Shown: positions 31,332-55,830 of the stretch, piece after piece
Position numbering within the stretch: position 1 is the stretch's first letter
Layout: each line of letters begins with the position of its first letter
Made by a program: the position numbers and the translations under genes
The notes under the pieces: generated by a model
Databases searched by the model: none
The model's input: only the letters and a program-made list of their open reading frames with translations
What the model was told of the DNA's origin: nothing
Source of the DNA: Daejeonella sp.
GTDB taxonomy: Bacteria > Bacteroidota > Bacteroidia > Sphingobacteriales > Sphingobacteriaceae
Direction: 5' to 3'
Assembly (NCBI RefSeq): GCF_030695525.1
Contig: NZ_JAUYSS010000067.1
Coordinates: forward strand, 1 to 64,000
DNA: 64,000 nt

Positions 31332-31606
31332 ATGTGTGTTCGATATAAAATCTTGCTTGGCTATTTTAAAATGAATTATAGCAAATGGTCCTTTTGCAGG
31401 TCTGCCCGTCCCAATGAAAAACAGCATCGGGTAAAATAAACCTTGCCGGAGGAGGTAGCTTCCGGCTATTCGAAAATTTGAAATAGAACGTAATTTCTTG
31501 CCTGAACTACTCCGGAGGAAAGGACTGAACCAGCCTATAAGACACAGGTATTGCTTTCCAAAAGCAAATTATTTAGGCACTGGAGCCTTATTTGGATAAT
31601 TATAAC
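31332..31606 (+). repeat. Dispersed intergenic repeat, copy 1 (MITE-like, internally deleted)
   Basis: The left edge ATGTGTGTTCGATATAAAATC matches the left end of copy 2 (44190 onward). The core includes AAATGGTCCTTTTGC, GGGTAAAATAAACCTTGCCG, GTAGCTTCCGGCTATTC, CGGAGGAAAGG and CAGGTATTG, ending GAGCCTTAT. Relative to copy 2 it lacks about 130 bp after the left end and its right inverted repeat is not recognisable. It lies between the convergent dipeptidase and epimerase genes. It has no credible coding frame. The right boundary is approximate. Confidence 0.75.
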
Positions 31607-31644
31607 CGTTTTATTTTACCCTTCATTAAACCGATTCAGGTTAA

Positions 31645-44183: not shown

Positions 44184-44189
44184 TATTTA
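44184..44189 (+). repeat. Left copy of 6-bp target-site duplication (TATTTA)
   Basis: TATTTA immediately precedes the terminal inverted repeat of copy 2, and the same hexamer follows its right end at 44617-44622. Confidence 0.6.
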
Positions 44190-44616
44190 ACGTGAGTTCG
44201 ATATAAAATCATATTGGAGTAAATTTAGATTGAATATTTTTCTTTTGTTTTAGAAAGCAGGGTCTGTTTCTCTTCGGTTTTGCCAGTCCCGTGTTCTGCC
44301 GTAGTTTTTTGCAGCAGATTTAATATATATCAGGAAATTCAGTATTGCAAAAAAGCTACAGCTGCCACCCGGGTTTATTTCAAATGGCAAATGGTCCTTT
44401 TGCCAGACTGGCTGTTCTAATTAAAATCAGCTCCGGGTAAAATAAACCTTGCCGGAGGAAGTAGCTTCCGGCTATTCCTAAATTTAGGATAGAGCGGGAA
44501 TTCCTGCCGGAACTACCCCGGAGGAAAGGGCTGAACTAGCCTATAACACACAGGTATTGCTGTCCAAAATCAAATTATTTTGGCCCCAGAGCCTTTTCCA
44601 TATATTGAACTCACGT
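44190..44616 (+). mobile_element. Dispersed intergenic repeat, copy 2 (complete MITE-like element)
   Basis: This is 427 bp of non-coding DNA bounded by 16-bp inverted repeats: ACGTGAGTTCGATATA at the left (44190-44205) and its complement TATATTGAACTCACGT at the right (44601-44616), with one mismatch. The flanking TATTTA duplications support insertion. Inside are a GGCAAA/TTTGCC hairpin around TGGTCC near 44388-44406, a GCCGGA/TCCGGC hairpin near 44450-44472, CCGGAGGAAAGG and CAGGTATTG. It encodes no transposase, so it would need enzymes from elsewhere. It lies between the divergent deacetylase and DbpA-like genes. Confidence 0.8.
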
Positions 44617-44622
44617 TATTTA
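44617..44622 (+). repeat. Right copy of 6-bp target-site duplication (TATTTA)
   Basis: This is a perfect match to the left hexamer, directly after the right inverted repeat. AT-richness makes a chance match possible. Confidence 0.6.
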
Positions 44623-45132
44623 ATAAAATAATCCCTGAGAAATCGACATTGATTTTACCTCCTGTTAGAAAATCGAAATTCTACCAATTCCTTTCAGTGT
44701 ATTGAAAGAATTTCAACAACTAAAGGAAAAATCGCGCTTCTGGCAAGAAATTTAAAATCAATGTATGCCCTATCCGGCGATTCAAATACAGATTCATTTT
44801 CAGCGCTTATTACCAAGCCGTTAAGGCTTATTACCCTCATGTTTATAAACACAAATATATAGCACATGGAAAAGGAAGAAAACAGGGATAAAAGACGCTC
44901 ATGTTTTGTGTTCTATTCGAGTTCTATTTGAGTTTGATCCGTGTTTGGTAACAAAACGGCATCCAGTTTTTTTTGATCTTTCATACCCTTTTCTTTGAGG
45001 ACTTCCGGGCTTGCTTTGGGTGATTTTGATGCAACTTTCAGCCTTGTGATTTGCCCATTTTCGTTAAGCCGATTCTTAAAGGGCTTTCCATAAACTTTAC
45101 CAAATGACTAAATCGATTGAGGATATTTGCAT
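44623..45132. other. Non-coding stretch right of the MITE-like element
   Basis: I see no supported gene in these ~500 bp. A reverse-strand frame open from 45107 to 44913 lacks a start until its last third and matches nothing I know. A short AAGCC/GGCTT inverted repeat occurs near 44817-44831. It may be decayed sequence. Confidence 0.4.
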
Positions 45133-55137: not shown

Positions 55138-55326
55138 GGTACCGTTTTGCCCATTTGCCCTGTAGAGGCGATATGTCATAATGGATTAGCTTCCGGAGAT
55201 TGGAAATTTGAATCAGAACGCGATTTCTTGCCGGAACTAAGCGGAGGAAAGGCCTGAATCAGCCTATAACACGCAGGTATTGATTTCCAAAATCTCATCA
55301 TTGTGCACCAGAGCCTTATATGACCA
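55138..55326 (+). repeat. Dispersed intergenic repeat, copy 3 (truncated MITE-like)
   Basis: It shares the right-hand core of copies 1 and 2: TTAGCTTCCGG, CAGAACGCGATTTCTTGCCGGAACT-like, GCGGAGGAAAGGCCTGAA, CAGCCTATAACACGCAGGTATTG, TTTCCAAAATC and CCAGAGCCTTA. The left part is shorter and the outer inverted repeats are not visible. It lies between the convergent NUDIX and coaD genes. Boundaries are approximate. Confidence 0.7.
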
Positions 55327-55362
55327 ATTTTAAAGTATTATTTTATCCTTCCCTTATCGAAT

Positions 55363-55830
55363 TCAGTGATTAATTAAATCAAAGGCCTCCTGAGGTATAA
55401 ACTGCCTCACATCCCCATTATTTCGCATAATATCACGAACAATTGTTGAACTTATGGATGAATAGCCTGGTTTGCTTACAATAAAGATACTTTCAATTTC
55501 AGGTACCAGGGCATGGTTCATCTGTGCGATTGCCTTCTCATATTCAAAATCTGAAACGGTTCGTATACCTCTGATCATGTAAGAGGCTTTGATCTTTTTG
55601 CAAAATTCAACGGTTAGACCTTCGTAAGTTTGAACTTCAACTTTAGGCTCATTAGCGAATACGGCTCTTAGCATTGCTTTTCTGATGTCGATACCGAGGT
55701 ATGGGGCTTTGGTACTGTTGAGGCCAATGCCGACGATAACTTTGTCAAAAAGAGGTAGGGAACGTTTCAATATATCAACGTGTGCTTTTGTAACCGGATC
55801 GAATGAGCCTGGAAATAGGGCGATCTTCAT
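55363..55830 (-). CDS. coaD: Phosphopantetheine adenylyltransferase
   Basis: The protein has 155 residues, normal for CoaD, which makes dephospho-CoA from phosphopantetheine and ATP. The nucleotidyl-transferase signature FPGSFDPVTKAHVDIL contains T-x-x-H in place of the usual H-x-G-H, the commonly tolerated Bacteroidota variant. YMIRGIRTVSDFEYEKAIAQMN and SKPGYSSISSTIVRD match the family. It is followed by the rsmD gene upstream on the same strand after a 111-bp gap. Confidence 0.94.
   Translation of the reverse strand: MKIALFPGSFDPVTKAHVDILKRSLPLFDKVIVGIGLNSTKAPYLGIDIRKAMLRAVFANEPKVEVQTYEGLTVEFCKKIKASYMIRGIRTVSDFEYEKAIAQMNHALVPEIESIFIVSKPGYSSISSTIVRDIMRNNGDVRQFIPQEAFDLINH

Follow-up and report, generated by a model that had tools for sequence, protein, structure and literature searches.

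The element at positions 44190-44616 of the window, the whole stretch of 64,000 nucleotides analysed here, is a MITE with IS982-type ends and no gene, and its core is an inverted pair of one structured module of about 130 nt. Judged by a chain of linked sequence searches, this module is, on its other strand, kin to the Flavo-1 motif of Rfam (RF01705). Our preferred reading, to which we assign a probability of about 0.82, treats the element as a MITE whose IS982-family ends enclose two convergent, inverted Flavo-1-type modules. Both IS982 MITEs and Flavo-1 have been described before; their combination is new as far as we found. In addition, our results suggest that the Flavo-1-type motif, instead of being a conventional RNA gene, may be a palindrome that moves.

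Borders of the element and the orthologous site in relatives

The borders are given by four features:

44184..44189, no strand: left target duplication TATTTA, from the sequence
44190..44205, plus strand: left terminal inverted repeat ACGTGAGTTCGATATA, IS982 type; identical 16 bp at the IS982 relic L114
44601..44616, minus strand: right terminal inverted repeat, 1 mismatch
44617..44622, no strand: right target duplication TATTTA, from the sequence

The earlier note had described 427 bp with inverted ends, framed by perfect TATTTA copies and encoding no transposase, and the coordinates and the sequence bear this out. The element measures 427 bp; ACGTGAGTTCGATATA at 44190-44205 returns as its complement at 44601-44616 with 15 of 16 positions matching, TATTTA stands at both 44184-44189 and 44617-44622, and no open reading frame of 80 aa or more overlaps 44190-44616. 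The marks of a MITE (inverted ends, shortness, no coding capacity and dispersed copies with different flanks) are all present. A polysaccharide deacetylase gene lies on one side of the element and a DEAD-box helicase gene on the other.

At the orthologous site in two relatives (G019 and G009), about 9 bp separate the conserved flanks, compared with about 910 bp in the window. Of these roughly 910 bp absent from the relatives, the element makes up 427 bp, and a further 484 bp lies to its right. The comparison with an empty site, which the earlier note had proposed, therefore succeeded only in part: the element is absent from the relatives, but the site is not cleanly empty, because the adjoining 484 bp is gone as well. 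This adjoining stretch (44617-45100) is single copy in its own genome and holds a perfect 12-bp inverted repeat (44646-44657/44753-44764).

Copies, spread and target duplications

With the whole element as the query, at least 49 stretches of its own genome were matched (E 7e-230 to 7e-8); this is a lower bound, as 40 of 103 candidates were scored, and it corresponds to only about 40 elements, because several stretches are two pieces of one element. The copies range from full length to one half. Of the 59 relatives searched, 13 gave matches, some with short stretches only: 12 belong to the element's own genus, which is represented by 19 relatives, and the remaining one to a different genus. The search of the genome and its relatives that had been suggested thus yielded copies with the same ends and different flanks, and the proposed spread in the genome is confirmed.

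The 16-bp end occurs 115 times at up to three mismatches, compared with 29 times for the reversed pattern. A target duplication of 6-8 bp (6 bp exact, or 7-8 bp with one mismatch allowed) is kept in 20 of 41 copies with clear ends, whereas 2000 trials with shuffled right flanks averaged 5.9 and never exceeded 13; both ends were called in 57 copies, 16 of which were excluded from this count for poor ends, and the 41 copies are not all independent, because flanks common to L095/L096, L014/L139 and L091/L148 identify orthologous insertions. A looser 6-mer count over all 57 copies was not significant (10 copies with at least five matches; shuffle mean 4.1, largest 10). That AT-rich sequence acquired inverted ends by accident might be imagined from ends that are AT-rich in part, but the copies that share these ends refute this explanation, as do the excess of the end motif and the target duplications, and its probability is practically negligible.

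The earlier note had also seen the core at two other loci of the window. Both are present, the first matched at 31378-31589 by the whole-element search and the second at 55187-55305 by nhmmer, and both are detected by the structure model R1, which is described below:

31332..31641, plus strand: second, shorter copy; left end ATGTGTGTTCGATATA, right end set by eye, no clear duplication
31432-31562, minus strand: R1 module of the second copy, 76.5 bits
55167..55368, plus strand: third, decayed copy; degenerate right end with 5 mismatches at 55353-55368
55167-55291, minus strand: R1 module of the third copy, 20.6 bits

Genome G000 (L017-L040) also contains shorter copies in which the 5' module is missing and the starting point ahead of the 3' module varies; several of them have one recognisable end only.

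Ends of the IS982 type

An IS982-like transposase was found in five of the 20 genomes of the genus, in two of them above the curated score. One IS982 element of the genus (L109) measures 1,044 bp, has the ends ACGTGAGTTCGGG and is flanked on both sides by TAAATA, the complement of the window's TATTTA; its protein is assigned to IS982 at 244 bits (cut-off 130), with a DDE domain. At another locus (L114), the exact 20-bp end of the window element (the 16 bp and their neighbours) lies roughly 100 bp ahead of a disrupted IS982 gene. The element has its ends and its target size in common with these IS982 elements, and by this likeness its ends belong to the IS982 family.

As the element's own assembly (73 contigs, 98% complete) gave no IS982 transposase match at E 0.001, we infer, on the evidence of sister species, a supply in trans. 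A transposase supplied in this way would have recognised the ends and moved the element, with insertion probably into AT-rich targets resembling TATTTA or TAAATTA. Ten aligned near-full copies from the genome are at most 89% alike (median 78%). Given this divergence and the absence of an IS982 match, the MITE family looks old and may now be idle in this genome.

Cardinium belongs to the Bacteroidota. MITECca01 of Cardinium cOegib is an IS982 MITE from ISCca4, of about 240 bp and with 169 copies; it was found in one strain and is likely derived from its parent IS (PMC9769881). The element resembles MITECca01, as the available text presents it, in its Bacteroidota host, its IS982-type inverted ends, the lack of a transposase and the many copies, whereas a structured or Flavo-1 core is not described for MITECca01 in that text (PMC9769881).

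A second family, of about 200 bp and with ends of the same type (ACGTGAACTCGACATA at one of them), occurs at L006 (1229-1428), L063 (about 1501-1700) and L053, with one copy flanked by a 7-bp duplication, TAATATA. Its core is palindromic but different (TTTAACCACATAG..CTATGTGGTT), and such ends therefore carry at least two different cores. The second core gave no match in the window.

Two facing modules in the core and their pairing

The core consists of the following features:

44249..44382, plus strand: 5' structured module, Flavo-1 type; R1 152.9 bits, a training row of R1; the Rfam Flavo-1 strand here is the minus strand
44288..44291, plus strand: helix CCCG, left arm, pairs with 44370-44373
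44301..44312, plus strand: hairpin left arm GTAGTTTTTTGC, from covariation
44347..44359, plus strand: hairpin right arm GCAAAAAAGCTAC, from covariation
44370..44373, plus strand: helix CGGG, right arm, pairs with 44288-44291
44438..44568, minus strand: 3' structured module, inverted and facing the 5' module; R1 65.9 bits, E 1.1e-14
44457..44474, plus strand: helix of the 3' module, left arm, from covariation
44505..44519, plus strand: helix of the 3' module, right arm, from covariation

R1, which finds the 3' module on the minus strand, is a covariance model trained on eleven 5' modules plus five distant ones and contains no 3' module of the window's MITE family. The profile of the whole element weakly matches its own complement. 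With a profile of the 5' parts, the complemented 3' parts gave matches that were weak but spanned the full length (best 16.1 bits, E 2.3e-5), 21 of the 62 lying above the inclusion line.

Pairing was assessed in two alignments. Alignment A1 holds 62 of 144 distinct nhmmer hits, near full length and scoring above 286; nine named loci were dropped from it: six that have an extra arm or are lengthened to a similar degree, one that is long, and two from duplicate-genome records. Alignment A2 holds 11 of 14 diverse 5' modules, picked from the 62 after ten of these had been set aside, together with five distant modules. The extra arm, of about 65 nt (GGTTGGTGTTATCACCRACC...), sits in the loop of the 3' module hairpin in L009, L014 and L008, and L095, L096, L015 and L016, which are of about the same length as L009 and L014, may carry it too.

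The strongest pair, 44301-44359, is CG in 29, GC in 16, TA in three and AT in one of the 58 copies with letters there and unpaired in nine; the second strongest, 44464-44513, is TA in 42, GC in 15 and unpaired in three of 60 copies. In relatives, the helix 44288-44291/44370-44373 reads CCTG/CAGG, CGGG/CCCG or CCCC/GGGG. Among the 62 copies, 60 cells were changed on both sides of pairs, compared with 20.0 after shuffling (a value of 60 was reached in none of 500 shuffles) and with 8-20 in slid controls, and the diverse set A2 gave 28 such cells against 9.8. In the 62 copies, pairs changed on both sides were in weak excess (9 against 6.0, reached in 15 of 500 shuffles), and further pair types showed no excess (28 against 26.7; 168 of 500). 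For each of the two best pairs, trees built from the remaining columns imply a minimum of 11 changes in pair type. We read these data as strong evidence, not as proof, that the modelled pairing has been kept through changes on both sides, because short sequences underlie the trees, kinship is not accounted for in the shuffles, and the structure, built from column covariation and the distant modules, is fitted to the same data.

Folding of the window copy gives -134 kcal/mol, with z -5.9 (z -4.6 for the minus strand). RNAalifold on a plain MAFFT alignment returned 22 pairs only, with a covariation term of almost nil. The folding and covariation check proposed in the earlier note thus upholds a foldable core, and with the ends, target duplication, spread and lack of a transposase, the MITE-like reading as a whole is supported. 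The two arms singled out there fared less evenly. GCCGGA/TCCGGC forms five or six of its six pairs in 57 of 62 copies, but both-side changes favour a longer pairing, of TTCCGGC with a downstream GCCGGAA, that adjoins the TA/GC pair (42 and 15 of 60); GGCAAA/TTTGCC reaches five or six pairs in 35 of 62 copies.

An alternative is a plain IS982-derived MITE, the core of which is junk, palindromic by chance, with a pairing inherited from palindromic founders. MITE cores are often palindromic, the copies descend from common founders, and two of the five pairing measures on the 62 copies are weak or null. However, the both-side changes lie far above shuffles and slid controls, the trees call for 11 or more switches of pair type, and the module occurs with the same helices in other genera without such ends; we consider this alternative very unlikely. 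If the element is instead a MITE that carries a pair of Flavo-1-type modules, selection may keep the folded single strand of the module, as DNA or RNA.

The module outside the MITE and its kinship to Flavo-1

Genome scans with R1, in which up to 22 candidates a genome were scored in all 151 genomes of the family and up to 150 in nine of them, found the module in at least 54 of 151 genomes (the own genome included) and at least nine of 25 genera. At least 40 of the genomes lie outside the genus, and one genome among the nine searched more deeply holds at least 75 module copies. IS982-type ends were found within 250 bp of none of 43 module loci detected by R1 (36 from other genera) and none of five Flavo-1 loci of the own genome, compared with an end within 380 bp, a wider distance, in 49 of 62 MITE copies.

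The opposite strand of module copies in other genera matches RF01705 at 49.8, 47.6 and 45.6 bits, above the gathering score of 42, and many more matches in other genera fall below that score. At two loci (L226 and L232), Flavo-1 is found above the gathering score at the places detected by R1. The own genome holds five RF01705 matches above the gathering score and ten more at E <0.001; R1 recovers all five of the former (57.8-74.4 bits) and one of five weaker loci, missing four. At E up to 10, RF01705 gave matches in 10 of 14 control genomes, none above the cut-off. The window element gave no match to RF01705 up to E 10 and thus did not reach 42 bits, and Rfam as a whole returned tRNA alone at the gathering score in the window and chance matches within the element. 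The window copy is therefore too far from the Rfam model to be a member by score, and is a relative of Flavo-1 by linked steps. On the opposite strand, helices and flanks of the module match those of Flavo-1 in alignments of copies from other genera; in contrast to the single unit of 76 positions in Rfam, the module here is about 130 nt long, paired and inside a MITE.

It may be that two transposon ends at some time came to enclose a Flavo-1 pair, and that such pairs also multiply without IS982 ends, by other machinery. The element is an example of transposon ends carrying a structured repeat that occurs alone elsewhere.

Pairs, arrays and possible mobility of Flavo-1

Flavo-1 copies stand in facing pairs, 16-98 bp apart. 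In ten loci, chosen for opposite-strand neighbours, there are 16 neighbour pairs within 150 bp, of which 11 are convergent and five divergent, with no same-strand pair; all seven loci of this count that have two copies are convergent. Same-strand neighbours occur 166-197 bp apart at L188 and L191, and many R1 loci hold a single module only. Tandem arrays with a Flavo-1-type module in each unit were found at L222 (1651-2575, 3.0 x 305 bp) and L224 (1373-2376, 3.5 x 283 bp), where an inverted partner is seen as a weak Rfam match in L222 and by eye in L224. A coding role of the arrays was rejected, as units of 305 and 283 bp do not run in threes. Likenesses to attC sites, retrons and group II introns were also considered and provisionally set aside.

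These observations bear on the annotation of Flavo-1. Weinberg (2010) marks it 'y' (probably RNA), followed by 'n' in two columns, in the available part of that paper (PMC2864571), and a review seen in excerpt counts it among the most abundant sRNA families (PMC9029176). The modules might accordingly be functional small RNA genes, as annotated, some of them picked up by a MITE, with an RNA that acts in the cell. The compensatory changes in pairing agree with this explanation, Rfam types Flavo-1 as an sRNA, and in the accessible portions of the Flavobacterium psychrophilum transcriptome study several 5' transcribed regions coincide with Flavo-1 matches (PMC9723704). However, the matches in the same portions lie in either sense, many are untranscribed, and no functional clue is given (PMC9723704). 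Moreover, the copies are numerous, arrayed and in inverse pairs. We consider this explanation unlikely on balance.

The modules could also be REP-like palindromes moved by a Y1 (RAYT) transposase. As in BIMEs, a short structured repeat is arranged in inverted pairs and in arrays. A Y1 partner seemed attractive because atypical structures, with copies elsewhere in the genome, are described beside subclass 2.6 TnpA-REP genes of Bacteroidetes in the available text of PMC6006769. However, G018, G002 and G006 have modules without a Y1 match, G012 and G033 have Y1 genes without a module, and one of the 20 Y1 loci fetched has a module match at E <0.01. An association of Y1 genes with the modules is thus unsupported across 26 genomes and around 20 Y1 loci, in contrast to the RAYT-linked BIMEs and REPs, and the units of REPs, 20-40 bp in the part of the source available (PMC3733652), are shorter than the roughly 130 nt found here. 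An origin by Y1 transposition is therefore improbable, more so than a role as small RNA genes.

Rather than RNA genes or Y1-moved repeats, Flavo-1 may in truth be a mobile convergent pair of modules of about 130 nt that proliferates within Sphingobacteriaceae, and perhaps wherever else Rfam detects Flavo-1, with the folded single strand as a transposition substrate that keeps the structure and with IS982 ends that captured it as a second vehicle; we propose this tentatively, at somewhat less than even odds. If so, many annotated sRNAs of Bacteroidota are repeats, and the element offers a concrete unit (ends, pair and arrays) to test. Within the available text of the Flavo-1 literature (PMC2864571, PMC9723704 and PMC9029176), neither the combination with an IS982 MITE nor the reading as a paired mobile repeat appears, and our search for literature on a MITE with a structured RNA in Bacteroidetes found no paper.

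In one relative (G009), a pair is duplicated about 3.6 kb away. The likeness between the two copies stops at the borders of the pair, with GAAAAGCAGG at one border and TTTCCAAAA at the opposite one.
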